DNA from: an uncultured Microcaldota archaeon
GTDB lineage: Archaea; Micrarchaeota; Micrarchaeia; Anstonellales; Bilamarchaeaceae
NCBI GenBank assembly: GCA_903828955.1
Contig: CAIKOA010000018.1
Location: forward strand, 1 to 64,000
Direction: 5' to 3'
DNA length: 64,000 nucleotides
The number at the start of each line of letters is the position of its first letter. Within the stretch, counting starts at the first letter, position 1. Shown piece after piece: positions 41,160 to 59,515 of this stretch. The position numbers were made by a program, and so were the translations under genes. The notes under the pieces were generated by a model that saw only the letters and a list, made by a program, of their open reading frames with translations, did not search any database and was not told where the DNA came from.

Positions 41160-41474
41160 TTAAAGCGAAGAGGAAACCATCGAGAGGTATTCCTTTGCAG
41201 AATCAAGGGTTTCCTTTCCCTTTTGGGTGAGAGTATAGTATTTCCGCCTTCCCTTTTCTTTTGCCGCAATCAGTTTCTCGAATTCCAGCATGTGGAGGAC
41301 GATGTAGACCATCACCCTGCTGCACTTGAAGCCGAACCTCCGCTCCATTTCAGCCGGAAGGGTGTATGCGTACGCCTCCCCGTCCTTTTTGAGAATTGAC
41401 ATTACATATAGCCAGAGGTTCTCGGAAGTGAGATGGCGTTTTAAGCGCTTAAAGGGGCGGGTGGATGTGCTCAT
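41160..41474 (-). CDS. PadR/winged-helix-like transcriptional regulator
   Basis: MSILKKDGEAYAYTLPAEMERRFGFKCSRVMVYIVLHMLEFEKLIAAKEKGRRKYYTLTQKGKE. Confidence 0.8.
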   Translation of the reverse strand: MSTSTRPFKRLKRHLTSENLWLYVMSILKKDGEAYAYTLPAEMERRFGFKCSRVMVYIVLHMLEFEKLIAAKEKGRRKYYTLTQKGKETLDSAKEYLSMVSSSL

Positions 41475-41485
41475 AAGGGATTACC

Positions 41486-44400
41486 TCATTCCTCTGGCCC
41501 TGTTTTAGGCTTTCTCTTTTTTTCTTCTGCAAGCCTCGCCCTTTCTGCTTTCCCCTCTTCCTCTGCTGCGAATGGATCCTGGGGCTTTCCCCTCCGTGCC
41601 TCGGGTATCCCGCTGTCAATCAGGGCAAGCGTCTTCTCATATTTTTCCTTCTCGTCTTTATCATAGAAAGCACGCGCGGCATCTGGCGTTGCGGATTTCT
41701 CCTGCGCTTCTTCTTTCCTTGAGGCCTCGGAAGGCTCGGTCGGGTATGCGCGGCCGTTTTCTATGGAAATTCTCTCTTCCACGGAGCGGTAGTCTTCCGA
41801 CCTCTGCTGATCCAATGTAATAATCCCTTTTGGAGGAGGGCCACTGGGAACTTCTGGAATATTGTCATGCATGGTGGTCAATAGGTTTTCGATTGCTTTG
41901 TTGGCCTTGGCAGGATCGCCGCTTTGAACGTCTTTAACCAGTGCTTCGGATTGCTCAACCGCGGTTTCGTATTGCCCTTTAGCCACCAGTTTGCCATCTT
42001 TTCCATATTCGTTTGTAACCGGAGGAACGTCGGGAATTGCTATTTTTCCTCCGCCTTCCGCTACCTGCCCAAGTAGATGATTACGAATAGTCTCGTCCCT
42101 GTAAATGCTTTCTTTTGCTTCACCCTCTGCAATCCTTGATTCCTTGGGAATTGATTTATCCGCCATCGCTTCTAATTCTCCAGAAGCCTTTGCTCCTTTA
42201 GCTCCCTCATTTATCTGCTCCATTTGGCTTGCATCCATATGGTATTGATTTCCAAGGTATGAATTCACATATTCTGCGGAAAGCTGCTGGGCAATGGCTT
42301 CCTTTTCCTTTCCTCCTTTTTCCAGCTCTTTGTATGCTTCCGTGATCGCTAAGCATTGCGGAATCTTTTTGTCGTCCAGTATCCCGAGGGACTTGTCGAT
42401 TGCCGCTCTTTTTTGCAACTCTTCATTTGAAATGAGGCCGAGGCCTTCCGCGCTATTGGTAATCGCGGCTTCCAGCGCGAATTTGTCGCGCGTCTCATTA
42501 GTAAGCGGTTCCCCCTTGGCAGATGCCGTCCTGGTTTCTACATAGAGCACATTATCGTCCCTTATTACTGCGGAACTGGCCAATCTATCAGCTTCTACCG
42601 CAGCAACATATTCGCGGACCCCCTCTGCGTTCTTAACCGTCTCCGCAAGCTTTTCACTGCCCTTGGAATTCTCGGTAATGAGCTTCTCGATCCCCGGGGT
42701 CTTCCCTTCCCCGGATACCACGCCATCTATTTTTTGTGCGCATGCTCTTGAAAGATTTTGGTTCCCGTTTTCATCGGCCTGGTGCCCCACAACGCCAAGT
42801 ACGAGCAGGCCCTGCCCTGCAACTTCCGCAGCGCCATCCTTGCCCGGGGCCTTGAGGGATTCTCCAAACTGCTGGTCGAATTTTCCGCTTTGAACGAATG
42901 AGCCAAGCGCTGCAGACATTTTCTGGGCTTCCCCGCTGTCCCCGCTTTCCTTCATATACATTGCGGCTTTGTATGCCTCCTGGAGGGTTGCTTGCCCTGT
43001 GGTAAGCTTCTTCTCAAGCTCTTCGGCTTTTTTACTATCCATCTCTTTTATTTCCTTCTTCATTTCCGCAGAAGCCTCCTTGGAATCGGCAACAGATTCA
43101 AGCGAACTGGATAAGCCAGCTATCTTTTCTTGTGCCACCATCTGGCTTGCAGCCTTTCGTGCTAGGTCAAGAGGCGCGAGGACCGCGGTCTTCTCCGCAT
43201 CGATCTGGCTTCTAATTTCCTCCTTAGTGCCCTTGAAAACTTTGTCGACCGTCTTTCCGGTCGCCGGATCCGTGGTCTGGGCTGTAACTCGCTTTTCGGT
43301 TACCGGGTCCACGTAAGAAAGGGTCACGCCCACAACCTTTCCATTCTCCTTAGCTTCGGTTTCTTTGAAGGTTGCCTTGGTATCGCTTATTGCCCTATTG
43401 AATGAATCCAACGCACCCTGGGTATTCTTTATTGAATTATCAAGTTTTGTGTATAATCCGTCAAATGTGGTTACCCAGACCTTTTCGGGCTTGCCCGTGT
43501 CTTTTCCGTTCTCGTCTTTCTGATTGACGACCTTGCCATTAGCGTCCTTCTTGTCTGTCTGGACCTGGATTCCGTTAACGAGCCAGCTGAATATGGGGCT
43601 TCCGGAGAGCAGCTTGAGGGCAAAAGCACCGCTGATTGCCCCGAGCGTCAGGCCGATTTGTTTGCCAATTGAAAGATCCTTAAACCCAACTACTTGGACA
43701 ATAGACTGGTTCTTTGACATTTCCATCTGCGTCATGGTTCCTTTTGTTCCGGCCCCTGTAACACTCTGTCCTGCCTGGGTTCCAGTCCCTGCCTTGCCTT
43801 TGGTCATTTCCTTTGCTGAGACTCCCGCGCCGGACCGGCCGGCGAGGCTAATGCCCTTAATTGTGCCTCCCAGCCCCTGCGCCTTTCCTCCGATTGTAAA
43901 GCCGGGCATTTTTCCTTCGGTTCTTGCAGAGCCTGTCTTCATGCTTACCTGGCTTTTGCCATCTGCGCCCTTTTTGGACATCCCTATTCCGCTCTGGATT
44001 ACGCTTACCGCGCTTCCAACCATCGAGTTGACGTTCCAGTTCATTCCCCTCGGCCTGAGCGCCCTTTCGGGGGCGCGCTTGTAGCGCGGGGCATATAGGG
44101 AAAACATTTCAAACGGGTTCCTCCCGCTTGCGAACATTGCCGCGGAAAGGAGCCCGAATATCACAAGGATCGGGAAGCAGAGCTGGAATGCGAATTCCAC
44201 GCCCATCAGTTTGGGTTTGGGCGGGATCGAAACGCTATCTATGGACGGGTAGATGGGAGGGGTATTTGCAACGTTCTTGAAAATGACTTTTGCCTGCTCT
44301 GGCCAGGGCGAAGGCCAGCTTAAGCCGGAAGTTGTCGGGCAGGGCTCTACATCCGTATAATGCTTGATACTCTGGTCGTTGAGGCATGTCGGGATGAGGC

Positions 44401-45640
44401 AGCCCTCGCTAACGTCCGAGCAGCAGAAAATGAGCGTTATCTTGCAGCCCAAATCATCGCAAAACTTATAGTTGGGGTCGGAATAGTTGAAATATGCGTT
44501 CCCCGAAGCGTCTGTCGCCATCCTGCAGGTCTTCTTCTTGGTCAGGTCCAAAGAGACCACCTGCACGAAAACCGTCGCGTCGCTCACAACCGGCCTTGAG
44601 CCGTCTTCGTTCTCAACAATGAGCGTGGTGCCGACCTCTTCCTCATCAAGCCTCGGGTCAAGGAACATCCTGGAGACCACGGAATCGTTTGAGGGGCAGC
44701 TATCGCAGAATGAAACGCGCCTGGTGGTGAGCGTGCCGCTTTTGATTGGCTGTATATTTATTATGAATGCGCTCTTTGCCACGCAGCAGTGCAGGGTCGA
44801 GCAGACCTCGCCTTCTGCGCAATCCGTGTCTTTAGCGCATTGGGTGCATGTGAAGAGGCAGATATTTCCTACGCAATCCATGAGCGGCGGGCAGTCCCCG
44901 TTGGAAACGCATTCCACGCAGTTCCCGTTCAGGCATACCCCTGATGGGCAGTCCTCATTGCTAGTGCAGGGGGATATTACGCATTCCCCGTCCGCATTGC
45001 AGGTCTGGCCTAGCGGGCAGTCCTTGCCCGGGCCGCATGCGGGGGTAATGCAGGAACCGTCCTTGCAGATCTGCCCTTCGGGGCACGTGAAATCTGCAGG
45101 GCAGTGGGGTGTCTGGCAGATTCCGTTCTTGCAGACCTGGCCCCCTGGGCAGGGAACCGCGGTCGAGCATTCGGATTTCTGGCAAATCCCGTCTGAGCAT
45201 ATATATCCTTCCGGGCAGTCCGCATTATTTGTGCATCCGCCTGTGGAGGGCGAGCAAACCCCGTTCAGGCAAACTTCCCCGGATTTGCAATCTGAATCGT
45301 TTTTGCAGCCCGTGCATACTCCGTTCACGCATTTCCCGGCCGGGCAGGGTTTTTCACCCGAGCATTCCCCGTTCTTGCACTGGCCGTTTATGCAGACCTG
45401 CCCTGGTGGGCAGTCCGCATCATGGGCGCACGTTCCCGCAGGGACGCAGAGGCCGTTCAGGCATATCTGGCCTGAGGGGCAATCCGCAGTGCCGTTGCAG
45501 GGAATTCCGCCACCGCCCCCGGCGCCGCCTCCTCCTCCTGCGCCTCCGGAAAATCCCCCGGCCGCAAAATAAAGGAGCATGAGTATGATGAAAAGAACGA
45601 TTACCCCAACGATACTCTGGTCACGGTCCATTGCATACAC
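41486..45640 (-). CDS. Giant Cys-rich repeat surface protein with TM segments and long charged C-terminal region
   Basis: N-terminal TM, about ten CPxGxxCxNGxC units, internal TM segments, then ~800 aa Lys/Glu/Ala-rich; last gene of the operon. Confidence 0.8.
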   Translation of the reverse strand: MYAMDRDQSIVGVIVLFIILMLLYFAAGGFSGGAGGGGGAGGGGGIPCNGTADCPSGQICLNGLCVPAGTCAHDADCPPGQVCINGQCKNGECSGEKPCPAGKCVNGVCTGCKNDSDCKSGEVCLNGVCSPSTGGCTNNADCPEGYICSDGICQKSECSTAVPCPGGQVCKNGICQTPHCPADFTCPEGQICKDGSCITPACGPGKDCPLGQTCNADGECVISPCTSNEDCPSGVCLNGNCVECVSNGDCPPLMDCVGNICLFTCTQCAKDTDCAEGEVCSTLHCCVAKSAFIINIQPIKSGTLTTRRVSFCDSCPSNDSVVSRMFLDPRLDEEEVGTTLIVENEDGSRPVVSDATVFVQVVSLDLTKKKTCRMATDASGNAYFNYSDPNYKFCDDLGCKITLIFCCSDVSEGCLIPTCLNDQSIKHYTDVEPCPTTSGLSWPSPWPEQAKVIFKNVANTPPIYPSIDSVSIPPKPKLMGVEFAFQLCFPILVIFGLLSAAMFASGRNPFEMFSLYAPRYKRAPERALRPRGMNWNVNSMVGSAVSVIQSGIGMSKKGADGKSQVSMKTGSARTEGKMPGFTIGGKAQGLGGTIKGISLAGRSGAGVSAKEMTKGKAGTGTQAGQSVTGAGTKGTMTQMEMSKNQSIVQVVGFKDLSIGKQIGLTLGAISGAFALKLLSGSPIFSWLVNGIQVQTDKKDANGKVVNQKDENGKDTGKPEKVWVTTFDGLYTKLDNSIKNTQGALDSFNRAISDTKATFKETEAKENGKVVGVTLSYVDPVTEKRVTAQTTDPATGKTVDKVFKGTKEEIRSQIDAEKTAVLAPLDLARKAASQMVAQEKIAGLSSSLESVADSKEASAEMKKEIKEMDSKKAEELEKKLTTGQATLQEAYKAAMYMKESGDSGEAQKMSAALGSFVQSGKFDQQFGESLKAPGKDGAAEVAGQGLLVLGVVGHQADENGNQNLSRACAQKIDGVVSGEGKTPGIEKLITENSKGSEKLAETVKNAEGVREYVAAVEADRLASSAVIRDDNVLYVETRTASAKGEPLTNETRDKFALEAAITNSAEGLGLISNEELQKRAAIDKSLGILDDKKIPQCLAITEAYKELEKGGKEKEAIAQQLSAEYVNSYLGNQYHMDASQMEQINEGAKGAKASGELEAMADKSIPKESRIAEGEAKESIYRDETIRNHLLGQVAEGGGKIAIPDVPPVTNEYGKDGKLVAKGQYETAVEQSEALVKDVQSGDPAKANKAIENLLTTMHDNIPEVPSGPPPKGIITLDQQRSEDYRSVEERISIENGRAYPTEPSEASRKEEAQEKSATPDAARAFYDKDEKEKYEKTLALIDSGIPEARRGKPQDPFAAEEEGKAERARLAEEKKRKPKTGPEE

Positions 45641-45665
45641 CTTTCATCCAATAAATTTAAACTTA

Positions 45666-48600
45666 TCATCCGCTTCCAACATATCTAACCGGCCCTACGG
45701 TTCCGGGGGGCGCGAAATCTTCGAAAACCGCGCTTGAGAACCTGCAGGACATCTGGTACTTGTCTATCGGAGGATTGTAGCCGCAGAACGAATCCATCAG
45801 CCCTGAGGCGGGATTGCACTCCACGGAAGTGTTCCCGTCCATTGGGAACACCGCGGGCAGGGAGTCATAGCTGTGCTGCTCGGATTTCTCGTAGGTCACC
45901 GTGTTGTTCTCAAGCAGGTCGAAGCACCATGTGAAATCATCCAGCGAAGAGATCACGTCCCTATATCCCTGGGGGCTGCCTGCAACATCCCCCACCTTGT
46001 ATATTAGCGTATCGTTGGTTCCGTTGTCGTAAACAACATCGCATATTATCCCATTCTCGTATGCGGACGGGCTCGGCTCCTGGCATAGGTCCTTCCTGAT
46101 GCAGTTGTCCGGCCATTTCATTGATGCGCCGGGAGTGTATCCGTCGCAGGTCTGGGTGCTCCTGCCCTTGTACCTCCCGTTGCAGAACTCAGGCTTGTCA
46201 ATGGCCGAGCAGGGGACGCAGTCGCAGGTGTCCTTCTCCGGGACCTCTATGTAGTAGGTCATGATGGAGTGGCCCGCGAATTTCCTTGCCGCGGTGAATA
46301 CCCCCCCGAAGAATTCATCCCTGTATCCGGCGGCATAAGTTTCGCCTCCTTTGCTGATGTCGTTGCGTATTCCGTTGTATTCGCCTATCGTGTCGTCCCA
46401 CTTACCATATATCAGCCCGATGTAGCCGCTCTGGACAAGGTCCTTTGCGTGGTTTCCCATGTATGTCATGAAGCGGCCCCCGTTCTCGTGGTCCCAGCAG
46501 TCGCCGGTCCGGTTTATCGTGAAATCGGTGACCACTATCGGCTTCCCGAAGCGCTGCAGCACCACGCGGCCGAACTCGGTCATGTTCGAGAGGATTGCGC
46601 TAAAGCGCGCGTCCTCGTCTTTTATTTTGCAGTAGTCGTCCCCGTCCCTCAGCTGGATGTTCATCGAGATTACGTCGATGTCTGCCAAGCGCAACTTATT
46701 GCAAACATAGTCTTTCGGGGCGCCTTCGATGCAATTAATATCATCGTAGTGGCAATCGTATAGATTGTCGCATTTGTAGGTGACATCAAAGTCATCAATC
46801 GGTGTGCCGGTAGCTTCTTTTCCTATGGGCAGCCCTGTTGGCGAAAGCACGTCTTTCATTCCCGGATTGGCGATGTATTCGAAAACCAGCGAGAGCTCCC
46901 TCATCCTCTGCTTCATGTCGAAGTTGCCCTCCGGTGAGTCCTCAAAGGGCCCGTATCCGATTGCGACCGAAGTCATGCAGTTGGGGCACTGGAGGCGGGT
47001 TGCCTTCGCACGGTCATCTATGCTTGAATAAAATCCGACGTTACTGTTCGAGTAACAGCCATAATCGCTGCAATACCCGATTGGGAGCCCTCCGGGCAAA
47101 AGCTCGGGCATCTCTCCGGGCTTGCAGGGCTGGCCATCCTTGCATTTGATAAATAATGGCGGGGATTTTTGCATCACAAGTATCGCGGCGCCTTCGTTTG
47201 TTATCGTGTTGCCAAGGAAGCTCCCTATCGAGTAGTATACGCAGCCATCTCCCTTGCCGCTCTCATTATCGCAATAGGTGGAGGAGCTTGTCGCATCCTT
47301 TGTGGGAATCGCAGCGAAAAGATAGCCCCTGTTCTGGTAAAGCTCCTTAATTAATTCAAATGTTGAATAATGCTGGTTTGGCGTCTTCGTGTGCGGATAC
47401 TCGTTGGTATCGAATACCACTGAGTAAGTTTGGTACGGGTTGTCAGGATCAGTCGTCGTAGAATCCGATCCCTCTGCCCAGAGGTTTCCGTCCGTTGCAA
47501 AAATGACCGGCTGGACGTTCCTTTTCATCAGGCTTTCCAGCTGCGTGTCGATGTAGAATGCGTTGGGATAGGTGTAAGGAAGGCCCTTCTGCCCGTATGG
47601 GGGGTCGGCGCCGCTGATGTCCGTGAAGAGATTATAACTGTTTGGATATGTGCACCCTTCCACGTTCGGGTCATCGTCCCAGTAGTAGCTTCCAACTTCA
47701 TAGCTGTTGTAGCCGTTCATCCCATAGGGTTCGAGCGAATAGTCCCCGAATGGGGCCCCATGGGAGATGCTTTTCTGAAAGAGGCTGTAGTAGTTCTGCG
47801 GTGTGTGGATGACCATATTCGGGCAATATGTGTTTCCGTACATCGTGTCGCTGGCGCTGGGGTCGAGGTTCGTATTGGATTCCATTGGGAGCGCGGTTAT
47901 CTCCTGCTTTGCCATGCCCAGATATCCACAGGATTCGCAAACCCCGTAATCCTTTATCTCGAGGTCGTCCCCGTTCTCGTTCAGCAGGCATTTTCCGATT
48001 GACCAGCGGCCGATGTCCTTGTGCCAGGTGGGCGCAATCACGATCATTGAGTCGGTTTCGGCGGCGCAGTCCTTGTCCATGTTTTCGCTGCCCTGCCTTG
48101 TGTGGCCTCCGGACTTGTAGATGTAGCAGCTCAGGCTCTGCGCGTCTTCCGCCTCTCCCAAATCAATATTAGAATCTTCGCTTAGAAGCGTGCAGAAGCC
48201 CTTGCCCGAATTAGCTGCGACTATCGTGCTGGAAACCAGTTCGCTTTGTTCTTTTCCCCCAAGCGCGAAGCCATCGGTCGAGTCCATCTGATCCTTCGCA
48301 TTGTTGCCATAGCACAGATAAATGTCGTCGAAGTACTTGTGCCCGTTTTCATCTGACCCGCTCATGCAGTTTTGTATGAACCTCGTTGCGCTTTTCCCTG
48401 CGCTGCCGAAGTCCCCAATGACAGTGGTGTTTTCGTCTGATTTGCCGCAGTTGGTGCCGCCATCGCAGCAGACAATGTATTTCTTGTCGCCCCTGCTGAA
48501 ATGCCAGCTTCCCATCCACCCGTCTGGGACGGCTCCGCAGGGGTCAAGGAGATAGGACATCATATATACGGTGTTGTAAATCTTATCTTTTTCTGCCGGG

Positions 48601-50381
48601 TTTACCGAAGCCCAGGTCCTCACGGTATAGTCCGGAAGCTTGGCTTTGTCGGCGGTATCATACTTGCCTCCCCCTATGTGCATTACAAAAAAGGGGGTGT
48701 CTATGTATTGCGGGTTATCCTCATCGGTTGGATTGTGGTTGAGCGCAATCATTTTTATCGCGCCCATTGCCGGAAGCTGGGCGATGGTTTCGTCTTGTCC
48801 CGCATGCGTTGATCCGCCTATGTCTATGGGCGCAGAAAGGGTGACGGGAACCTCCACATCCGTGCCCGGGTCATCCCAGGAGGGGACGCTAACCCCCTTT
48901 GAGCCTATGCAGAGCGCCTTGCCGGACGCATCGTCCGAGCAATCGCAGATGATGTCCTGCCCGTCCACTCCAACGCAGACTCCGCGCTTTGTATCAAAGT
49001 TGTTGCAATAGCCGGAAAGGCAGTCCTGAGCGTTGCTGCACTCGAACTCCGCGCCCCCCGCAACGCTTCCGTTTGCAAGGAGGTGCCCCTCGCTCAGCTG
49101 CTTGTTGTAGACCGAGTGGTGGGCAAGAAGCCATGGATAAAATTGATGGGGGTCGTTCTCCATTGTGAGGAAAACCGTTTCCGAGTCGTGCTGGCCTTCC
49201 CAGTTCCAGTCAAAATAAAATGGCGTGATGTCGACTTCTGAAGGAGGGGAGGTGATTAGCCCGAAAACTGGGATTGCCGGCACACTGTCGTCTCCTGGTG
49301 GCTTGCCCTCGTATGCAAGGTACCGCAACAGGGAGTAGCCATCATTGCCTCCCTCGGTGTTTAGGTGGGTTTTCCCGAAGGTTGCGCCATAGAGGGTTGT
49401 TCCGTACCCATACTTGTCCACATCGTTTCCCGAGGGAAGGGATCCGACCGAATTCCTGTATCTGTCGTAGAAATCGATTGCGCTTCCTGAGATTCCGCTC
49501 GGGTAAGGCGTGGTCAGCGCGCCTGTGTAAGGCCCGTATGCGAATGGATTTCCAATCCAGTTATCCTCGTACTTGGTGAGGTATGGGTTGAACGGCTCAA
49601 TCTCGGGCTTGTATCCATAGTTCTTAAGGGCGCACCTGGATGCGCAGTCAAAATAGGAATAGGAGCGGATGTCTCCATCGGTGCTGCAAACATATGTGGA
49701 GGAGACCTTCGTGCAAAGCTGCCCGCCTCCCTGCACCTGGTTGGGTATTGCATAAAGAATGTACCTGTCCACCGTTCCGGACGGGTTCAGGTAGCAGGCC
49801 TGGTCCGTAATCGGGAAATAATACTGGGCTTCCTCGAAATCCTGGAAAGAGCTTCCCACCCCGAAACGGAACTTGTTCATCACGATGTCCCCGGAATTCT
49901 CAAGCTGCCGCAGGAATATGGGGGACATGTTCTGGAGGGTGCATTGCGCCTGCCAGAGCCCGAGCGGCTTGTCGAGGGCCGCCTCCCCGCCGCCTTTCTT
50001 CTGTTTTTTGGTGTGGGATTCGTCCTGGCCGTATCCCGCAGCGAGCGGGCGCGGGTCATAGAAGAAGGTTCCGCAGAAAATCCCGGAGCATGACGTGTTG
50101 CAGGGGACTGCTTTCACGTTCGGGCAGATGGGGGCGGTTTTATGGGTCCCGTTGGAATAGGTATCCTCGAGCGTGCAGGTCCAGTTATCCGCATCGCATT
50201 TGACAACCGGGAGGATTTGCTCCTCGTTGGTTTCGTTCATCCCCTTGCAAACGGCATCGGCCGGGTCTGTGGGGAGCGCTTCGTCCTTATAGCAGCAGAA
50301 CTGGTATTGCGGGCTCATGCAGCCAAAAAGGAAAAAGGCGGCTGCCGCCAAAACTACCAAAAGTGCGATTCTTCCGTTCAT
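45666..50381 (-). CDS. Giant (1571 aa) Cys-rich predicted lipoprotein, possible C-terminal TIM-barrel-like region
   Basis: Lipobox LFGC; dozens of Cys; FGKPIVVTDFTINRTGD...SGYIGLIYGKWDD resembles the end of glycosidase TIM barrels; start overlaps upstream stop (50378-50381). Confidence 0.75.
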   Translation of the reverse strand: MNGRIALLVVLAAAAFFLFGCMSPQYQFCCYKDEALPTDPADAVCKGMNETNEEQILPVVKCDADNWTCTLEDTYSNGTHKTAPICPNVKAVPCNTSCSGIFCGTFFYDPRPLAAGYGQDESHTKKQKKGGGEAALDKPLGLWQAQCTLQNMSPIFLRQLENSGDIVMNKFRFGVGSSFQDFEEAQYYFPITDQACYLNPSGTVDRYILYAIPNQVQGGGQLCTKVSSTYVCSTDGDIRSYSYFDCASRCALKNYGYKPEIEPFNPYLTKYEDNWIGNPFAYGPYTGALTTPYPSGISGSAIDFYDRYRNSVGSLPSGNDVDKYGYGTTLYGATFGKTHLNTEGGNDGYSLLRYLAYEGKPPGDDSVPAIPVFGLITSPPSEVDITPFYFDWNWEGQHDSETVFLTMENDPHQFYPWLLAHHSVYNKQLSEGHLLANGSVAGGAEFECSNAQDCLSGYCNNFDTKRGVCVGVDGQDIICDCSDDASGKALCIGSKGVSVPSWDDPGTDVEVPVTLSAPIDIGGSTHAGQDETIAQLPAMGAIKMIALNHNPTDEDNPQYIDTPFFVMHIGGGKYDTADKAKLPDYTVRTWASVNPAEKDKIYNTVYMMSYLLDPCGAVPDGWMGSWHFSRGDKKYIVCCDGGTNCGKSDENTTVIGDFGSAGKSATRFIQNCMSGSDENGHKYFDDIYLCYGNNAKDQMDSTDGFALGGKEQSELVSSTIVAANSGKGFCTLLSEDSNIDLGEAEDAQSLSCYIYKSGGHTRQGSENMDKDCAAETDSMIVIAPTWHKDIGRWSIGKCLLNENGDDLEIKDYGVCESCGYLGMAKQEITALPMESNTNLDPSASDTMYGNTYCPNMVIHTPQNYYSLFQKSISHGAPFGDYSLEPYGMNGYNSYEVGSYYWDDDPNVEGCTYPNSYNLFTDISGADPPYGQKGLPYTYPNAFYIDTQLESLMKRNVQPVIFATDGNLWAEGSDSTTTDPDNPYQTYSVVFDTNEYPHTKTPNQHYSTFELIKELYQNRGYLFAAIPTKDATSSSTYCDNESGKGDGCVYYSIGSFLGNTITNEGAAILVMQKSPPLFIKCKDGQPCKPGEMPELLPGGLPIGYCSDYGCYSNSNVGFYSSIDDRAKATRLQCPNCMTSVAIGYGPFEDSPEGNFDMKQRMRELSLVFEYIANPGMKDVLSPTGLPIGKEATGTPIDDFDVTYKCDNLYDCHYDDINCIEGAPKDYVCNKLRLADIDVISMNIQLRDGDDYCKIKDEDARFSAILSNMTEFGRVVLQRFGKPIVVTDFTINRTGDCWDHENGGRFMTYMGNHAKDLVQSGYIGLIYGKWDDTIGEYNGIRNDISKGGETYAAGYRDEFFGGVFTAARKFAGHSIMTYYIEVPEKDTCDCVPCSAIDKPEFCNGRYKGRSTQTCDGYTPGASMKWPDNCIRKDLCQEPSPSAYENGIICDVVYDNGTNDTLIYKVGDVAGSPQGYRDVISSLDDFTWCFDLLENNTVTYEKSEQHSYDSLPAVFPMDGNTSVECNPASGLMDSFCGYNPPIDKYQMSCRFSSAVFEDFAPPGTVGPVRYVGSG

Positions 50382-51514
50382 ACCAACTTCCCCACCATTC
50401 CAAGGAACGGGGTGATGTCCCCTCCAAGGATTGTTGTTGCAAACCTTATGAATGTGAGCGCTATTGCAAAAGCCACGAAATTATTGTAAAGCAGCGTAGC
50501 CTGGATATCCGCAACGAATGAAGCGAGGTCGTTTGAAAGCGATATCTCCGCGGCCGAGCCTGAGGTCGAGCCGGTCTGGAGCGCCGCCGAGCCGAAGGAG
50601 AAGCTTCCGAACATCGGAATGTTGCACATGCCGGTGGAGATTATGTTCGGCAGGTTCGGCTCAGCCGAGGCTGCCGTGAAGCCGCTGTCCATTATGAAGC
50701 AGACCGTCGGGTAAACAAAATAGAAGCCTATTCCGATTGACATGAAGAAGGCGCCTATGCCGCGCGTGAAATGGAAGGTGCGCAGGATTATGCCAAGGGG
50801 AAGGAAAACCGCGAGCATGTTCTGTTTTATGTACTCGAGCATGAACATCTTTGCGCTGAGGGCTATCATCAGGTTTACGCAGATGTAGGCGATGCTGTGG
50901 TAGGTTTCCACCTCCTTGAAAATATACTCCTGCATCCATGCGCCTGAGTAAATAGGGACTCCCAGAGCGGTGACCATGAGGGAGTACTGTATTTCAGGGA
51001 AATGGTCCGCTTCACGGACGTACTTGTACTTTTCATTCAGCTTTACCAGGAACTCGTTCGTCCTGCACATGTCCGCATCAATGGGCTGCTTTATCACCGC
51101 GTTGTCCGGCCCGCATTTGATGCTTCCCATGCCCCCGGCAAAATCAAGGGCCTCCGTGAGGGCCGCAATCAGTATCACGACCATCACCGCGGTTGCGGCC
51201 GTGTTCAGCATTTCCGAAATCGAATACCTTTGCAGGTTCTGGGAGCTTAACGCTTTTCCTATTATGTAGATTAAGCCGTTGAAAAACGCGGAAACCATTA
51301 TTGCGAGCATGCAGAGGGGCAGCCACCCCCAGTCCGGCCCGCCTTCCCAGGAGGGAAGGAATTCGCCCTTGTTGAGGATTTCGCTGGTGGCCTTGTCCGC
51401 AAAAACGAGCGGGATGAAGACTGCGATGAATACCGAGAGCAGCGCTATGGGAAGCATCAGCGGAAGCCGCTTTTTTTCTTTCCTGTCTTTTTCTTCCTTT
51501 CCCATTTTTCCCAC
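50378..51514 (-). CDS. Polytopic membrane protein, paralog 6 of the R-x5-R-x2-G-x14-P family
   Basis: LPLGIILRTFHFTRGIGAFFMSIGIGFYFVYP; C-term LGGDITPFLGMVGKLV. Confidence 0.85.
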   Translation of the reverse strand: MGKMGKEEKDRKEKKRLPLMLPIALLSVFIAVFIPLVFADKATSEILNKGEFLPSWEGGPDWGWLPLCMLAIMVSAFFNGLIYIIGKALSSQNLQRYSISEMLNTAATAVMVVILIAALTEALDFAGGMGSIKCGPDNAVIKQPIDADMCRTNEFLVKLNEKYKYVREADHFPEIQYSLMVTALGVPIYSGAWMQEYIFKEVETYHSIAYICVNLMIALSAKMFMLEYIKQNMLAVFLPLGIILRTFHFTRGIGAFFMSIGIGFYFVYPTVCFIMDSGFTAASAEPNLPNIISTGMCNIPMFGSFSFGSAALQTGSTSGSAAEISLSNDLASFVADIQATLLYNNFVAFAIALTFIRFATTILGGDITPFLGMVGKLV

Positions 51515-52621
51515 CTACACTATCTGCACCAGCCTGCTGAGGTCGACCTCCGAGCCGAGGAGCCTTGCGAACACCGAGGCAGCAGCCGTCACCGCGGTTA
51601 TGTTGAAGGTGAACATGAAAACCGAGCTAAGGAATGCTGCCGCGTTAAACATTATGAGGGGCTGATTATAATCAATGGTCTTGTTGCCAGAATAGCCCTC
51701 GGGGATGTCCTTGAAGACCCAGTCCGCCCCGCTGACCGTTCCGAAGAAGAGGTCCCCGTATGCGAGCTGGCTCTCCTTTCCCTCTATGCCCACGAAATCA
51801 TTCATGTTTTCCAAGACGTTCTTGCCCCCCACTCCAGTGGAGCTGGCCACCCAGTCGTATGGGTTCCAGAAGGCGGATTCCACGAAAACCAGGAGCGGAA
51901 AGACTATGAAGAGGGAAAAACAGATTGCAAGAAGGGCGCCTCCGGCCTGCCTCATGAAAGGAAGCGAGCGCAGGACTATCGCCATCGGGAGATAGGCCAC
52001 GACCAGCCCGGACTGGATGAATTTAAGGAAGAAGATTTGCGCAAGCACCGTGAGGTAGGCGGTGGTGGAGGAATACAGCATCAGGTTGGAGGTCTGCACG
52101 AAGACCGCGCCCCCTGCAAGAGGCCGCACGTTCACCCCGTTCACGCCCATCAGGCACATCAGCCATGGGGGGACGCAGGGCGTGCGGGTATATTTGGAAA
52201 ACTCGTCCATCGCGCCCAGCATCGCGCGGGAGCCGCGCACCGCCTGGTGCGAGAAGTATGCCATGTTCTGGAGGTATTTTTCAGAAACCTGGAACACGTT
52301 GTCGTCGGTTTTTATTGCCGGGTGCGCATATGCCGCGGTTCCGCTTGAATAGGCGTTTATCCAGCCCGCATCCATGGAGAATGAAGCGGAAGAATCCAGC
52401 CCCACGAGCCCCACGAGGAAAAGCGCGAGGAAAACCATCACGATGCTTGCCGCGACCTGGAAAATCTCGGTTTTTGCCCAGACCGTGAATTTCGGGTTGT
52501 CAAACATCCGACCGATTGCGTACGCGAGGCCCATCATGATTGCGGCTACCGCTGCGGAGAGCATGGAAAGCGAATACATGTCACCCCAAGTTATTGCCAT
52601 AAAATCACGAAATCCTCGCAA
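51515..52621 (-). CDS. Polytopic membrane protein, paralog 5
   Basis: LPMAIVLRSLPFMRQAGGALLAICFSLFIVFP; C-term LGSEVDLSRLVQIV. Confidence 0.85.
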   Translation of the reverse strand: MRGFRDFMAITWGDMYSLSMLSAAVAAIMMGLAYAIGRMFDNPKFTVWAKTEIFQVAASIVMVFLALFLVGLVGLDSSASFSMDAGWINAYSSGTAAYAHPAIKTDDNVFQVSEKYLQNMAYFSHQAVRGSRAMLGAMDEFSKYTRTPCVPPWLMCLMGVNGVNVRPLAGGAVFVQTSNLMLYSSTTAYLTVLAQIFFLKFIQSGLVVAYLPMAIVLRSLPFMRQAGGALLAICFSLFIVFPLLVFVESAFWNPYDWVASSTGVGGKNVLENMNDFVGIEGKESQLAYGDLFFGTVSGADWVFKDIPEGYSGNKTIDYNQPLIMFNAAAFLSSVFMFTFNITAVTAAASVFARLLGSEVDLSRLVQIV

Positions 52622-53684
52622 GGCCGGAGATGTCTACCTCCGCCCCGAATATGCTTGCCAGCCCGCGAATGGCTGTCAGCGTTATCAGCAAATTCAACAT
52701 TGTGGTGAATAACCCCTCTATGAAGAACTGGTATACGAGCGGGTCTACCAGGGAATCCCCGGAATCCCCGGTGAGCCTCTCCGACTCGTGCCGTGCTGCC
52801 TTCGGGTCCATGTCCAGCGGATTGCACTCGGATTTTATTTCAAAGGTGTCGAAGCTTTTTGCGAACATCTCCACCGGGTAGTCAAAAGACGGGTAATCTC
52901 CGGCTTCGGGGCCGTATGCGGGGATGCCCGCGGTGTCCGCCGCTTTTTTTGCCATTCCCCAGGTGAGTATTACCGAAAATGGATAGATGAAATAGAACCC
53001 GACCGCGATTGCGATGAGCAGCCCGCCCGCCCCCCGTGTGAACTGGAAGCAGCGGAAGAAAAGGCCGATTGGAAGAAGGACCGGGAAGAAGAAGCTACTA
53101 GCGAGCTGGATGAGGAACGTCTGCGAGTTGTTCACGAGCATCGCCGAAACAAGCGCATTGGTGGCGAAAGTGAGGGACGCAAAGGGCACCTGTATCCCCC
53201 CACAGCCCGTATAGGAAAAGCTGCTCCCCATTATGTTGCACGTCCCGCTCGCCGATGCCATGCTTCCGAGGGGGATTGTGAGGCTCTTGCTCAGGGCGCT
53301 GAGGCTCTCCCACTGCTTGTCCGAGAGGTCCTGGCTGACCTTCAATGCGAAATCCACGTGGTTCCCCACGGCGCCCCCGAATACGTCCGAAAATGCGGAT
53401 GAGAGCGTGCTTGAGGAATACGCCTCCAGGGCGATGAAGAAGACTATGAAGAACATCGTGACGAAGACCTGCCACATCTCCTGCCGCGCCAATGTGCGCA
53501 TTTCCGCGGAATCAAAGAAGAAGCCGAGGAGGTATAGGATGAGGAGTACCCCCAATGCCGCGAAGGCCGCGAGGATTGCGGGGGTCTGCCAATTAGCCGA
53601 GGGAAGGATTACCGGGGGTATTATTAGGGGCGCGGCAAAGGAAAGGGAAAGGAGCACCAGTAGTGAGAGCAGCGCGATCTTCAT
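52605..53684 (-). CDS. Polytopic membrane protein, paralog 4
   Basis: LPIGLFFRCFQFTRGAGGLLIAIAVGFYFIYP; C-term FGAEVDISGLARIS. Confidence 0.85.
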   Translation of the reverse strand: MKIALLSLLVLLSLSFAAPLIIPPVILPSANWQTPAILAAFAALGVLLILYLLGFFFDSAEMRTLARQEMWQVFVTMFFIVFFIALEAYSSSTLSSAFSDVFGGAVGNHVDFALKVSQDLSDKQWESLSALSKSLTIPLGSMASASGTCNIMGSSFSYTGCGGIQVPFASLTFATNALVSAMLVNNSQTFLIQLASSFFFPVLLPIGLFFRCFQFTRGAGGLLIAIAVGFYFIYPFSVILTWGMAKKAADTAGIPAYGPEAGDYPSFDYPVEMFAKSFDTFEIKSECNPLDMDPKAARHESERLTGDSGDSLVDPLVYQFFIEGLFTTMLNLLITLTAIRGLASIFGAEVDISGLARIS

Positions 53685-55858
53685 TTTATCAGCCCCGTCA
53701 TTCCAGGAATGTCAACGTCCCCGCCCAGAATCGGCGAGAGCGTCCTTATGAACATAAAAGTTATCACCAGGTTGAGCAATGGGAGAACTATTGCGGGGAC
53801 GACCAGCTTGGTGATTTCCTTTGTCGCCCCCGGGCCGTCAAAACCCTCGACCGCATTCGCGTCCCCTTCGCTGGAGACCCCCACCATCTTCGCCTTTCCG
53901 CACAGGTTGTCGCATCTTTGGTGGACCGGCGGGTAGGAGGCAAACCCTGGGTCGATAAGAAAGCTGCATGGGGTGCATATCGGGTCGTTTAATGCGATAT
54001 CCGGGATGATTGTGTAGCAGCTCAGCTTTGCGGCTGCCATCTGGCCCTGGACGGTGCCTGCGTTCCTCGCTATCGTCCATAGCGCGAACGGGTTGGATGG
54101 GGTGCTGGTGCAATATGGTCTGCACCCGTCTCCAGTAGTTCCGGTGGTGGTTACCCACCTGCAGTTGTTCGGGCACGCCTCATCCCAGGAGACCGTGCCG
54201 CCCTCCTTCAAATCCTCAAAGCCGAGCCAGGAGAGGGCTTTTGTGGCGTTGTCGTCGGGTTCGCAGAATTTGCTTGCAATTAATTTGCTAAACGACGGCG
54301 GGGTTTTGTCTTTCTCATCACAGCGGCTCATCACGCCCTGCCCGCCATTACCCAGGTATCCGGAGTCCGTCATCTGGTCGGTTATGTTCTGCACCAACAT
54401 GCCTCCTCCGCTGTAGTCAAATCCATAGCCGATGTCGCAGCCCGATTTCTTCAGGCCCACCATGGGGCGGCATTGTGCAGGGCAGGCATCATTCGCCCCG
54501 CTGTCCTGGTCGTACATCCCTCCAAGGGCGGGGTCATTCATGTCCGCGTATCTGGTGATGAAGCACTGGTCGGGAACGTCCTCCCTGCATGCGTATTCCG
54601 TGGCTCTCGCTGAGCACTGCGGGTTTGCGTTCGGGTACGGGAGAGACCTGCACATGAGCGGGCATTCTCGGTAGTTGATTATTCCGCAGGATTGTATCGC
54701 ACCCCAGGCGGTATCGACAGGAGTGCAGTCTTCAATGGTCTTGTTTTCCGTATTGGCGCAGCCATCCTCCCCTTTGTCGCATTCTTCTCCGCTCTCATTG
54801 TTTCTCCAGAGGAGCTCCTCGTGTGTTTCGCAATGCTCCCCTGCGATGAACTCGTCTATCCTGGTCTTGTAATCGTCATCGCTTTCGTGTTCGCCCTGGG
54901 GGAAAAGCGTGGTTATGTTGGTGCGCGTATACGTCGCTCCGCTCGTCAGGTTATATGCGAGGGGGGGCAGCTGCCTGCAGCTTATTGTGCAGAACTGGTT
55001 TGAGACGTCCCCTCCGGTAGTGGAGGAGCCGTAAAGGGTTGTCTGGAGCGTATAGAATGCGAGAGCGTAGGAAGCCGGGAATACCAGGAGGAATCCGATT
55101 CCAAATGCCATGAGCAGCCCTCCGAGTTTGCGCGTAACGAAGAAGGAGCGGAAGATTATTCCAAGGAGGAGCGCCGCTGGCGCAAGAACATTGGAAACCT
55201 CGTTCAGCAGGAACTGCTGGTAGACAAGGGCGTCCCGCATGCCCATCAGGAACTGCATCTGCTGGGTAAATGTTGTGACATCGATCATGTATTCGGGCGC
55301 GACCTTCATGCTGAATGAGGCGTAGAGGAGCCAGAGGTAGTTTGTGCCGAAAACGACCGACATCGTTGCGAGTTTGCCGGCCATCACTGAGCTTTTCATG
55401 AGGTCGTCGAAGACCGCAAGCGACTTGTCAAGGTAATCCTGTATGTACTGCTGTGCGACGGAGACCGGGCAATATGTGCCTGCTTTGCAGGTGAAATCAT
55501 GGGAACCCATCAGGATGCCCTGGGTGGCCAGCTCCACGAACACCAGGACGGCGACCACCACAATCACTATCAGCACGGTTGAGAACGCTTCGGAGAGCTC
55601 GATGTCGGCCCATGCTTTTAGCTCGGGGATGTTGAACGCATTTGCAATGGGGTAGGCTAGCGAAATCAGGCCTACGGAAAGGAGGACGAAAACAATCGAG
55701 AGAATCCTCCATTCCTTGAGGATTGAGGCGGTGGTCGAAGTGCCTGCCTGCGCTCCGCTAATCGCCGGGGAAACGTACTGTGATTCCCCCTGGGTGCAGC
55801 CGGGCAGCAGGAAAGCCGCAATGACCAGGAAGATTACTAATAGCGCCGCCTTCTTCAT
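53681..55858 (-). CDS. Polytopic membrane lipoprotein-like paralog 3 with large Cys-rich insertion
   Basis: Lipobox LLPGC; LLLGIIFRSFFVTRKLGGLLMAFGIGFLLVFP; ~350-aa Cys-rich insert; C-term LGGDVDIPGMTGLIK; ATG overlaps upstream stop. Confidence 0.85.
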   Translation of the reverse strand: MKKAALLVIFLVIAAFLLPGCTQGESQYVSPAISGAQAGTSTTASILKEWRILSIVFVLLSVGLISLAYPIANAFNIPELKAWADIELSEAFSTVLIVIVVVAVLVFVELATQGILMGSHDFTCKAGTYCPVSVAQQYIQDYLDKSLAVFDDLMKSSVMAGKLATMSVVFGTNYLWLLYASFSMKVAPEYMIDVTTFTQQMQFLMGMRDALVYQQFLLNEVSNVLAPAALLLGIIFRSFFVTRKLGGLLMAFGIGFLLVFPASYALAFYTLQTTLYGSSTTGGDVSNQFCTISCRQLPPLAYNLTSGATYTRTNITTLFPQGEHESDDDYKTRIDEFIAGEHCETHEELLWRNNESGEECDKGEDGCANTENKTIEDCTPVDTAWGAIQSCGIINYRECPLMCRSLPYPNANPQCSARATEYACREDVPDQCFITRYADMNDPALGGMYDQDSGANDACPAQCRPMVGLKKSGCDIGYGFDYSGGGMLVQNITDQMTDSGYLGNGGQGVMSRCDEKDKTPPSFSKLIASKFCEPDDNATKALSWLGFEDLKEGGTVSWDEACPNNCRWVTTTGTTGDGCRPYCTSTPSNPFALWTIARNAGTVQGQMAAAKLSCYTIIPDIALNDPICTPCSFLIDPGFASYPPVHQRCDNLCGKAKMVGVSSEGDANAVEGFDGPGATKEITKLVVPAIVLPLLNLVITFMFIRTLSPILGGDVDIPGMTGLIK

Positions 55859-56790
55859 GGAATCACCTTTGCAACCTTTATCATTGCGGTTGCGGCTGAA
55901 AGGAACACGACCATCGCCAGGTTGGGCAGGAATATCGTCTGGAACAGGTAGCCGGCGATTCCGCCCCATCCATAGAGGGAGCCGCAATCGGCCAGCACGC
56001 GCTCATCGCTTTGGCTGTCATAGCAATTGCCGCTAAGCGATACACCGGCCGCGGATGCGTTCACAGCGTATGCGATCGGGAGTATCACCAGCAGGGAAAA
56101 CACTATCGCGAGAACGACATTGCCGGCTTCGCGCACAAACGGGAGCGCCCGCAGCAGAAGCCCGAAGGGAAGCAGGACCGGGAAAACAAAACTTTTTATG
56201 AAGTAGATAATGTAGAACTGCACCCCCGCGCTTACGTAACCCACGGTGACCATGTCGGCAAGGATTTCATATTGCCGCTCGAATGAGGTACGGTAGGAGG
56301 TCTTGAAGGCCATCTCCCCTCCGAGAAGGGGCATCATGTAGCCGACAAGCGTCGCGCCCTTGAATTTCTGATCCACTTCGCTTTTCAGCAGGCTGGTGAG
56401 CAGGACCTTTCCGTTTACCAGAAGGCTGGATGCATAATTCTCGGAGATTGTGAGCGCGCCCTGCGTGCCAAGGAAGTTCCCGAAGAAGAGGCAGGAGCCT
56501 TCGAAAAATCCCACTATGGAGATGACCAGTATTACGGTAATTATTAGGTGGAATAGCTCGTCCTTGCTGAACACGAGGAGCTCCGCATTAGAGGTTGCCT
56601 TGCCGAACATGTATGAGAGGGACACTATCGCAACGGAAAGGAAGATTGCGGCTGCAACGAGGCCCATCGCGGAGTTGAATGAGTCCTGGGCCGCCTGGTC
56701 GGAAGCGTCCGGGGCAAAATTGCAGGTTAAGTCTGCGGCCCCTGCGAAAAGGAGGGAAAAGAGCGCGAGCAGCATCAATATTTTTTTCAT
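55855..56790 (-). CDS. Polytopic membrane protein, paralog 2
   Basis: LPFGLLLRALPFVREAGNVVLAIVFSLLVILP; start overlaps upstream stop at 56790. Confidence 0.85.
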   Translation of the reverse strand: MKKILMLLALFSLLFAGAADLTCNFAPDASDQAAQDSFNSAMGLVAAAIFLSVAIVSLSYMFGKATSNAELLVFSKDELFHLIITVILVISIVGFFEGSCLFFGNFLGTQGALTISENYASSLLVNGKVLLTSLLKSEVDQKFKGATLVGYMMPLLGGEMAFKTSYRTSFERQYEILADMVTVGYVSAGVQFYIIYFIKSFVFPVLLPFGLLLRALPFVREAGNVVLAIVFSLLVILPIAYAVNASAAGVSLSGNCYDSQSDERVLADCGSLYGWGGIAGYLFQTIFLPNLAMVVFLSAATAMIKVAKVIP

Positions 56791-58052
56791 CAGATGAACC
56801 TCGAAACCCCGTAAAGGATGTAATCGCCTCCAAGGGCGGCAGAGATTGATTTTATCCCGGTAAATGTTATGAAGACCACTATGAAGAAGGAAACAAGGGA
56901 TACTCCGGTCGCCTCAGCAACCGCAGGAAGCAGGATTTTTGCGATCGGGGCAAACGTCGGCCCCACCTGCATTGCGGCATCTATCCCGAACAGGGTGAGT
57001 ATTGTGCCCCCAATGGCAAGCTGGACGAATGTCACTATGATGGGCCAGATCACCCAGACAAACATGTAGAAATAAATTACGACGCATCCGAGGTAGTCGG
57101 CAAGGCAGGAAATCGCTGCAATCAGCGCGAATACGAGGCCCCAGAAGAACTCCCCCAGGGTGAGTATTGCGCGCGTGACCACGTTCCCGCATACGAAATC
57201 GACGACCTGGAGCACGCCGTCCATGAAGCCGCTCCCCGTGCCCAATTTATCAAAGGTGAAGGCCGTATTTTCCAGGTCATGCTTGTATGTCCATGCCGAA
57301 TCGTTGCTCCACCATATGTCGTTCATGAAAACCAGCGAGAGCGGGAAGACAAAAATTACCCCAAGGCAGATTGCGATGAGGGTATTCCCCATTTTCCGTG
57401 TTAGCGGGAAAAGGCGGAAGGCGAGGGCAATCGGGAGCACGAAGGGGGGGAAAATCCCGTCCACATAATAAGTGAACAGCTTGAGCAGCCGGAAGGTCAG
57501 GATCTGCACAGTGAGCATGTTTGCGGCGTTCGAAAGGGGCCCGATGAGAAGGCCCACCCCGAAATAGGGGGAAGACCCCTGCCCTATATACACATAGTAG
57601 AGGCCGATGCTTGCAAAATAGCTGAAGCTCTGGTAGAATGCAACCGTCTGGTATGCGTCGGTAACCTTGAGGTAGGCGGTTTCCAGGTAATCAATTTGGT
57701 TGTTGAGGGCGTCCACTCCCATTGAGGGCACGTCTTTCTGCATGAATACCGCGCTCACAATACTGTTTCCGCCCGCAACAATTGCCCAGACTAGAATTAC
57801 GATTACTGCGCCAACAATCAGCTCTTTCAGGTTCTCCTTTGAGAGGGCTACAAGGGAGGGCATTTCAAGGGAGGTGCCGAGCATGTAGAGGAGCGAAATT
57901 ATTCCTACCGAAACAACCCCGACCAGGAATATGAATTCAATCCCAAGGGATGGAAGAGCGACATCGGGGGGGTCTTCTGAGGCAAAAGAGAGGGAGAATC
58001 CTATTAATATAATTAATAATAACAGCGAGGCCCTCCTTTCCATGCCCTGCAC
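56790..58052 (-). CDS. Polytopic membrane protein, paralog 1 (first gene of the operon)
   Basis: LPIALAFRLFPLTRKMGNTLIAICLGVIFVFP; C-term LGGDYILYGVSRFI. Confidence 0.85.
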   Translation of the reverse strand: MQGMERRASLLLLIILIGFSLSFASEDPPDVALPSLGIEFIFLVGVVSVGIISLLYMLGTSLEMPSLVALSKENLKELIVGAVIVILVWAIVAGGNSIVSAVFMQKDVPSMGVDALNNQIDYLETAYLKVTDAYQTVAFYQSFSYFASIGLYYVYIGQGSSPYFGVGLLIGPLSNAANMLTVQILTFRLLKLFTYYVDGIFPPFVLPIALAFRLFPLTRKMGNTLIAICLGVIFVFPLSLVFMNDIWWSNDSAWTYKHDLENTAFTFDKLGTGSGFMDGVLQVVDFVCGNVVTRAILTLGEFFWGLVFALIAAISCLADYLGCVVIYFYMFVWVIWPIIVTFVQLAIGGTILTLFGIDAAMQVGPTFAPIAKILLPAVAEATGVSLVSFFIVVFITFTGIKSISAALGGDYILYGVSRFI

Positions 58053-58061: not shown

Positions 58062-58073
58062 AAAATATAAAAA
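58062..58073 (+). promoter_or_regulatory. TATA-box-like element (AAAATATAAAAA) in divergent promoter
   Basis: A/T-rich TATA-like stretch about 25-35 nt upstream of ATG 58097. Confidence 0.4.
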
Positions 58074-58096: not shown

Positions 58097-59170
58097 ATGA
58101 AAGCAACTCTGGTTTTTCTCGCTGTGTTTGGGATGCTTGTAGGCAACCTGTTTGCCGGGGACACAAATTACAGGGAATTCGTGCTGAGGGACGTAACCCC
58201 CGGAGGGGATCCGCTTCCTGTGTATAATTGCGAAGGGGACGAGGACGGCGGGCCTTTCATGCTCACGATGCACTTCACCATCGGGAACCCCTTTGGGGTT
58301 CTTGCGGATGCGAAAGTGTATGCATACAACCCGAACACGCAGGAATGGGCGCTCCAGAAGACCTGCACGAACATAGACCCGACCGGTGAGAAGTGCGACG
58401 TGTTCATACCGCTGGTCTGGGGCATGAGCGGGAACGACACTCAGCCCCTCGGGCTTGTGAAAATAGAGATGAGCAAGGGAAGCGATGTGTATTCCAAGGT
58501 TTTCACCTTCAATACGTTCCACAGCGAAACAACGCAGGAGAGCCTCATTTGGGAAAGGATTTCCAATCTTTCTGGGACCATCCAGGAGCTGAAAAGAGGG
58601 GCCTACTGCACTTCGGATTCGAGCGTGTGCTGCCCGGTGAATGCAAAGATTACTGAGTTTGACGGGGTCGGGCAAAGGAGCATCGAGTTGGGGAAGGAAT
58701 GCAAGCTAAGGGATGCGAGGCAGAACGTGATGGATGCGATAAACAATATTACGGCTCTTAAGCAGGAGGCTGCCGCCTGCTCTGCCGCAATCGGGCAATT
58801 GAACAGTGCGGAGGGGCTGAAGGCAAGCTGCAACGACGCTTCGCTAGCCGCTGAAGTTTCCGGCCTTGAAGGCAAGGTGAAGAGCGGGGATTACAGCATT
58901 ACCGCCGCCGCTGCACAGGCAATCTACGCGAATACGTGCAAGGGCGCTCCCGCGGTTACTACCGGGGGAACGGCCGGAACAGGAACGGAAGCAACTTCCG
59001 CAACTGCGGCTACCGGAGCGGCTGCAACGGGAACGGGCTCAGCCCCGGCCGGAACAGGCTCCACTTCGACAACGGGGGCGGCCGGAACGGCTTCCTCTGG
59101 AAGCGGATGCCCGGTCGGATTCCTGCTGCTTGCTGCTGCGGCTTTCGCATTTGCAACCAGAGAGGAATAG
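58097..59170 (+). CDS. Secreted protein with Thr/Ala/Gly-rich stalk and C-terminal TM anchor (CTERM-like)
   Basis: Signal peptide MKATLVFLAVFGMLVGNLFA; TGTGSAPAGTGSTSTTG stalk; C-term GCPVGFLLLAAAAFAFATREE. Confidence 0.75.
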   Translation: MKATLVFLAVFGMLVGNLFAGDTNYREFVLRDVTPGGDPLPVYNCEGDEDGGPFMLTMHFTIGNPFGVLADAKVYAYNPNTQEWALQKTCTNIDPTGEKCDVFIPLVWGMSGNDTQPLGLVKIEMSKGSDVYSKVFTFNTFHSETTQESLIWERISNLSGTIQELKRGAYCTSDSSVCCPVNAKITEFDGVGQRSIELGKECKLRDARQNVMDAINNITALKQEAAACSAAIGQLNSAEGLKASCNDASLAAEVSGLEGKVKSGDYSITAAAAQAIYANTCKGAPAVTTGGTAGTGTEATSATAATGAAATGTGSAPAGTGSTSTTGAAGTASSGSGCPVGFLLLAAAAFAFATREE

Positions 59171-59173
59171 GGA

Positions 59174-59515
59174 ATGGGATTCTTTGAAGTAATAGGCGGA
59201 GTCCTTGGGGGAAAAAAGGAAAAGAGCACCCTTGCCTCCAAGGGCTACAAGTGCCCGAACTGCGGCGCGGATGTGAAGATAGAGTGGGAGCGCTGCCAGA
59301 AGTGCGGAGTGCGCATCAAGAGCATGTTCAGGAAGAAGTGCCCGAAATGCAAGGAGATGAACGAGCTTGATGCGAAAATCTGCGAAAACTGCGAGTATGA
59401 TTTTGAGGCGGAAATAAGGGCTGCGAAGAAAACAGTTTACAAATGCCCGCGCTGCGGCTACGAAATGGAAGTGTACATGCAGCAATGCCCTGGATGCGGA
59501 GTAAGGTTCGTATGA
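59174..59515 (+). CDS. Multi zinc-ribbon protein
   Basis: Repeated CPNCG/CQKCG/CPKCK/CENC/CPRCG/CPGCG pairs. Confidence 0.8.
   Translation: MGFFEVIGGVLGGKKEKSTLASKGYKCPNCGADVKIEWERCQKCGVRIKSMFRKKCPKCKEMNELDAKICENCEYDFEAEIRAAKKTVYKCPRCGYEMEVYMQQCPGCGVRFV

Follow-up and report, generated by a model that had tools for sequence, protein, structure and literature searches.

We analysed a run of eight genes in the window, which is the whole 64,000-nucleotide (nt) stretch of contig CAIKOA010000018.1 from the metagenome-assembled genome (MAG) of an uncultured archaeon of the Micrarchaeota (DPANN). Six of the genes encode paralogous membrane proteins, named S1-S6 here in reading order, and two encode giant Cys-rich proteins, named G1 and G2. 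We propose, with a probability of about 0.6, that S1-S6 are putative VirB6/CedA-type subunits of a hetero-oligomeric channel in a divergent machine that resembles the Ced system or a type IV secretion system (T4SS), and that the copy in the window (cluster A) is the one equipped for contact with a partner cell. Together with the giants, S1-S6 are probably an unrecognised apparatus for cell-to-cell transfer or contact, and the source archaeon probably depends on a partner. A fuller version is more tentative: the module may be an obligate six-subunit VirB6-type channel whose order was fixed early in the phylum and which was later copied whole, one copy gaining giant, glycan-binding, disulfide-rich surface proteins and becoming a dedicated machine for partner contact or transfer.

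It has long been asked how DPANN archaea with tiny genomes acquire metabolites, nucleotides and genes from the cells around them. The genes described here are a concrete candidate for such an apparatus: they are named, occur almost throughout the phylum, come as a fixed set of six subunits and include a giant component exposed at the surface.

The gene string and its conservation

An earlier note on this DNA had listed the open reading frames (ORFs), and all were found at the positions claimed, including the 4-nt overlap of S6 and G1 and the 25-nt gap before G2. The features are listed below (aa, amino acids; TM, transmembrane segments); both TATA-like boxes were read by eye.

56790..58052, minus strand: S1, position-1 paralogue, 420 aa, about nine hydrophobic segments
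55855..56790, minus strand: S2, position-2 paralogue, 311 aa, 6 TM
53681..55858, minus strand: S3, position-3 paralogue, 725 aa, lipobox-like start
52605..53684, minus strand: S4, position-4 paralogue, 359 aa, 7 hydrophobic segments
51515..52621, minus strand: S5, position-5 paralogue, 368 aa, 5 TM
50378..51514, minus strand: S6, position-6 paralogue, 378 aa, 6 TM
45666..50381, minus strand: G1, giant Cys-rich lipoprotein, 1571 aa, lipobox LFGC, 63 Cys, 4-nt overlap with S6
46269..47576 (approximate), minus strand: predicted G1 barrel, TIM barrel of glycoside-hydrolase clan A type, from Foldseek of the model
41486..45640, minus strand: G2, giant protein, 1384 aa, 59 Cys, 2 TM
44231..45502 (approximate), minus strand: predicted Cys-rich ectodomain of G2, its N-terminal repeats matching DUF7107/Dickkopf_N
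58066..58073, minus strand: TATA-like box TTTTTATA, about 21 nt 5′ of the S1 start
45650..45661, minus strand: TATA-like box TTTAAATTTATT, about 21 nt 5′ of the G2 start
41160..41474, minus strand: PadR-family regulator, 11 nt 3′ of G2, present in nine cluster-A loci among those compared

The intergenic spacing from S1 through to G1 is -1, -4, -4, -17, 0 and -4 nt, and G1 and G2 are +25 nt apart. The start of S3 is most likely the ATG at 55858 (725 aa) rather than the mechanical start giving 768 aa, and about 400 aa of Cys-rich, hydrophilic sequence are inserted ahead of the last TM of the protein.

The genome that contains the window is small (1.22 Mb in 35 contigs, 95.6% complete), as the earlier note had supposed. 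Almost all of the relatives that bear a name are MAGs of Candidatus Micrarchaeota; one of them, LFW-283_2, is Bilamarchaeum dharawalense, assigned by NCBI to Candidatus Anstonellales, which is thus probably the order concerned. The gene string S1-S2-S3-S4-S5-S6-G1 is present in relatives throughout the order and is kept in most of the about 70 loci examined, with each position mostly finding its own orthologue as best match. Such recurrence in dozens of related genomes means that the arrangement is not due to chance. We also dropped the idea that the gene order is a merely local feature, as the synteny is present in several families of the order; a lack of synteny had been named in advance as the observation that would speak against the system.

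S6 and G1 overlap or lie at most 5 nt apart in 33 of 35 loci. In contrast, the orientation of G2 varies: among 25 loci, it lies downstream on the same strand in 7, is divergent in 15, and lies upstream on the same strand in 3. In addition, a TATA-like box is usually seen by eye 5′ of G2 in relatives. Thus, S1-S6-G1 is a firm unit, whereas G2 is tied to it more loosely and probably has a transcript of its own. The proposal of a 16.5-kb operon is therefore supported in part, better for S1-S6-G1 than for G2. Independent transcription of the giant genes, the other observation named as counting against the system, apparently applies to G2 in most relatives, while G1 stays tightly behind S6.

Paralogy of the six S proteins

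In a six-way alignment, S2-S6 are 18-24% identical to S1. When profiles built from the orthologues of each position were aligned pairwise, the hhalign probabilities were 99.4-99.9, and on this basis S1-S6 are true paralogues. No meaningful match to Pfam, NCBIfam or PDB sequences was found for S1-S6, the PDB being searched with the S6 and S3 profiles. The AlphaFold2 model of S6 (mean predicted local distance difference test score, pLDDT, 77.8) is mostly helical and contains very long helices. NF041016 was considered as a CedA model and rejected, since it is ArnR.

A scan of genome contigs with the single S1 protein gave no match, whereas one with the S3 alignment did. In some relatives, S3 grows to 1409-1761 aa and S5 to 1090-1115 aa (L108, L116, L120 and L121), so the extracytoplasmic parts of single subunits appear to have expanded repeatedly.

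Further S loci and the history of the module

The genome has a second run of six S genes, which lacks giants (cluster B; C32:45250-51858, L022). A third locus on contig C19 (L077), which we call the S0 operon, consists of an 81-aa gene with two TM, a lone S gene (S0), a 259-aa putative CedN with two TM, a 479-aa ATPase and a winged-helix-like protein. The string pilin-S0-CedN-ATPase is present in relatives too. Profile comparison of S0 with S1-S6 gave hhalign probabilities of 98-99.8%, by which S1-S6 and S0 are of common ancestry. Near a contig end there is also a second copy of the pilin-like gene and S0 (G000:C13:1042-1651; 86% identity to S0 over 123 residues), either a duplicated locus or a strain variant in the assembly.

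When a sample of 246 genomes of the phylum was searched with the S6 profile, 220 proved to have the S family. Loci from other families (L208, L210-L216) each show exactly six S genes and then, in one gene run, two CedN genes with two TM each and, wherever the locus is complete, a CedD-like ATPase (the stretch L211 ends ahead of the ATPase position); some of these loci have pilin genes upstream of the six S genes. L209 has six S genes and no adjoining ATPase. No relatives were found in viral contigs scanned with the ATPase and S6.

Each cluster of the tree set, whether A, B or other, has exactly six S genes, the exception being L036, where S6 fell under the TM filter. In the tree of 89 S proteins, S0 is set apart (99) and the rest are sorted by position, not by genome. 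Members from A, B and the other families group together at positions 2, 3, 5 and 6 (98, 97, 98 and 99). At positions 1 and 4, the members from A, B and L216 group together (98 and 89), and the tree does not resolve the members of two distant clusters. Because the clades follow position and not genome, the simplest history is an early origin, within the phylum, of six ordered and distinct subunits, followed by duplication of the entire module into A and B. A lone S0 beside six fixed subunits, later duplicated en bloc, would make an evolutionary natural experiment parallel to the VirB6 expansion of Rickettsiales.

Pilins, ATPases and CedN

The channel family is tied to a Ced/T4SS-like set of genes for VirB2-like pilins and CedB/CedD/VirB4-like ATPases. 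About 10 kb beyond S1, on the same contig and outside the window, four tandem small genes (C18:67.7-69.5 kb) each encode a signal peptide and two TM, and 56 of 59 relatives have homologues of them. Among 24,736 Pfam families, T4SS_pilin and TrbC/VirB2 were matched most often (13 and 10 of 20 members, best 9.3e-6), although the matches are weak for single members. Furthermore, hhalign gave 72% against R388 TrwL and 98% against the 81-aa protein upstream of S0; the tandem pilins and this protein are homologous, as judged from the latter comparison.

The pilins are also similar to the S proteins themselves. The pilin family matches the N-terminal TM pair of S3 with an hhalign probability of 92.6%. 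In cluster B, a pilin domain is fused into the S protein of position 2 in four genomes and into the position-1 ORF in two. Moreover, a whole-genome search with Pfam T4SS_pilin gave four matches, all sub-threshold: the N-termini of S1 and S5, the 81-aa protein on C19, and an 85-aa frame beside the C13 copy of S0. The best of these was the N-terminal TM pair of S1. This likeness agrees with a published similarity between the pilin CedA1 and the N-terminal region of CedA (PMC9905601). In addition, two proteins combine a pilin domain with a long Cys-rich stretch (L198:12463-14184, 573 aa, 48 Cys; L214:15869-17932, 687 aa, 24 Cys); these proteins could be pilus-tip adhesins.

Two ATPases are encoded outside the window. 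The best NCBIfam model was CedB for the one on C19 (2.2e-29) and CedD for the one on C2 (L074; 1.6e-21). Both scores are far under the curated cut-offs, and thus we call the two proteins relatives of CedB and CedD, not certified members. Against the PDB, the ATPase profile matched HerA (2.7e-16) and a VirB4-like protein (2.8e-14). In the CedN family, VirB4_plasma was matched by 2 of 16 members (best 2e-4), and with its identity as the N-terminal part of VirB4 weakly supported in this way, CedN is termed putative. The last gene of the CedD-like string in this genome encodes an 849-aa protein with two TM (L074:5600-8149, minus strand), which has homologues at the same place in other families.

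The giant proteins G1 and G2

The lipobox and many cysteines of G1 are kept across the order. A model of residues 372-1571 had a mean pLDDT of 58 overall and 80-90 in part of the C-terminal half. Glycoside-hydrolase TIM barrels dominate the Foldseek matches listed, with beta-1,4-galactanase first (probability 1.0, E 3e-3), none of the matches reaching E 1e-3. The catalytic Glu after strand beta-7 is replaced by Asp, Gly or another residue in 24 of 24 aligned sequences (KPIVVTDF here). Since this Glu is absent, sugar binding seems likelier than hydrolysis for the modelled barrel.

G2 consists of an N-terminal TM, Cys-rich repeats, a TM with the conserved motif CFPxLxIFGLLxAAMxASGRNPF, and a long, weakly conserved tail; the tail after the second TM, about 880 residues, is probably cytoplasmic. 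The motif occurs in 11 of 2112 ORFs scanned, and ten of those are G2.

In a genome of the distant family f17, one strand (L216:5425-20000 and L217:1-15270) carries pilins, S1-S6, two CedN genes, a CedD-like ATPase, a 2707-aa giant with 62 Cys and a 1902-aa protein with the G2 motif. This run holds both kinds of gene and thereby ties giant exoproteins directly to transfer genes, and it is possibly a complete machine in one gene run. The description of channel-like subunits with giant surface proteins has stood up, and the functions suggested at the outset (cell-cell contact, secretion or DNA uptake) remain fitting.

Proposed mechanism

S0, a candidate CedA-type protein, has the operon context and topology of CedA, a VirB6-like channel protein with 6-7 TM encoded beside pilin and ATPase genes, and S1-S6 are homologues of S0. 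We suggest that the six polytopic S subunits would assemble into one membrane channel, each position being a distinct and non-interchangeable subunit. Cluster A would be a second copy of this module, made en bloc and adapted to the cell surface; in it, the Cys-rich extracytoplasmic part of S3 would form, with G1 and G2, an extracellular collar or adhesin for docking on another cell. The disulfide-rich G1, with its catalytically dead glycosidase-fold barrel, would bind sugars. The CedB/CedD-like ATPases, whose genes lie at other sites of the genome, would supply the power, and the VirB2-like pilins of the four tandem genes may form the conduit. The ATPases are nearest to the DNA-translocating CedB and CedD; the first guess for the cargo would therefore be nucleic acid, which the cell would take from a partner or exchange with it, with protein export as the main alternative, and both cargo and direction are conjectural.

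Several results weigh against this proposal. The S proteins gave no Pfam TrbL match, and the TrbL match in the genome fell on a TadC-like gene. With R388 VirB6 as a single-sequence yardstick, hhalign gave less than 1% and no signal. Foldseek of the S6 model against the PDB returned no significant match and no VirB6, with long-helix proteins at E>0.2 only. The coupling protein VirD4 (PF02534) had no match at E<=1 in this 95.6% complete genome, cluster A is without an ATPase of its own, and the Foldseek E-values for G1 are modest, with a mean pLDDT of 58 for its model. Bacterial VirB6 is a pentamer, from which a ring of six would differ. Furthermore, the fit to a Ced-like role gives no information on the cargo. 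Because of the lack of a VirB6 link and of a coupling protein, we claim that the machine would work like a Ced/T4SS system and do not file it as a T4SS.

The negative sequence and fold tests would also suit a novel membrane family unrelated to VirB6 and CedA, beside which the pilin and ATPase genes do something else, such as surface pilus assembly. Yet S genes stand together with pilin and ATPase genes in two independent gene strings, pilin-S fusions exist, and the T4SS_pilin profile picks the S1 and S5 N-termini among its four matches in the genome, so we consider this very improbable. Alternatively, S1-S6 could be a membrane scaffold that anchors or assembles an adhesive layer of G1 and G2, with a T4SS ancestry that is historical and no transport. 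The missing ATPase would fit, as would the position of G1, which almost always adjoins S6, and the giant Cys-rich and glycan-binding-like parts suit adhesion. Against a scaffold, all six subunits retain a conserved core and the parallel cluster B is retained without giants in the same genomes, which makes it quite unlikely.

Cluster A could also be an effector-secretion or host-injection device that exports protein into a partner archaeon, with G1 and G2 as the host-docking part. The small genome fits such a device. Giant exoproteins linked to VirB4-type ATPases in another DPANN group were read as secretion (PMC10266531), and T4SS genes are essential for the epibiotic growth of a patescibacterium (PMC12102498). 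However, we identified no candidate for an effector, the ATPases come closest to models of the DNA-import proteins CedB and CedD and not of dedicated protein-secretion ATPases, and the genome gave no coupling protein; on balance, we find effector export unlikely. The channel proposal remains our preferred reading.

Comparison with known systems

Among the closest parallels are Ced of Sulfolobales and Ted of Thermoproteales, which exchange DNA (PMC9905601, PMC11868833). CedB/CedD-like ATPases are the best family matches; a small pilin gene with two TM, a polytopic channel gene and an ATPase gene adjoin each other (here in the S0 operon, with the 81-aa pilin); the N-terminus of the channel protein resembles the pilin; and the systems are chromosomal with no coupling protein found. 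In contrast, there is one CedA and one paralogue, CedE, in those systems, whereas here there are six ordered paralogues plus S0, with the module duplicated. Giant Cys-rich exoproteins and pilin arrays are added here, and CedN, the putative N-terminal part of the ATPase, has a gene of its own. Homologues of VirB3 and VirB8 are stated to be absent in archaea (PMC11868833).

The rvh/virB6 arrays of Rickettsiales (PMC2653234, PMC7648143) are similar in having tandem VirB6 duplicates (five in Rickettsia, four in Anaplasma), some of which are greatly extended, lipoprotein-like and surface exposed, in host-dependent organisms. However, they are bacterial, with genuine TrbL/VirB6 domains in a double-membrane T4SS, whereas the S proteins are six, archaeal and without a detectable TrbL domain, and the giants are encoded separately. 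Patescibacteria resemble our case as an ultra-small, mostly epibiotic lineage with chromosomal T4SS, mostly without relaxase, and tandem VirB2 arrays. Their T4SS differs in being homologous to monoderm conjugation machinery, and the accessible part of the source reports no six-paralogue VirB6 module or giants of G1/G2 type (PMC12102498). The nanohaloarchaeal giant SPEARE/VirB4 proteins (PMC10266531), set side by side by description, are also giant surface proteins of DPANN archaea; they are connected with VirB4-type ATPases and proposed to act on the host. They differ in being immunoglobulin-repeat proteins fused to the ATPase, whereas the giants here are separate and tied to channel paralogues.

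We found no description of the S-type module in Micrarchaeota in the open-access literature, a scope outside which most subscription papers and preprints lie. The suggestion of an undescribed machine can be kept for this variant; the type of machine (Ced/T4SS-like) is already known.

Neighbouring genes

Upstream of S1, three divergent genes on the plus strand (58097-60084 of the window) encode a 357-aa signal-peptide protein, a zinc ribbon and a 213-aa protein; their linkage to cluster A is seen in 6, 10 and 14 loci, respectively. Next to them, on the minus strand at 60177-63989, is a CDC48-like AAA protein that has TM at its N-terminus and contains an intein. Several relatives have a homologue of this protein close to pilin arrays.

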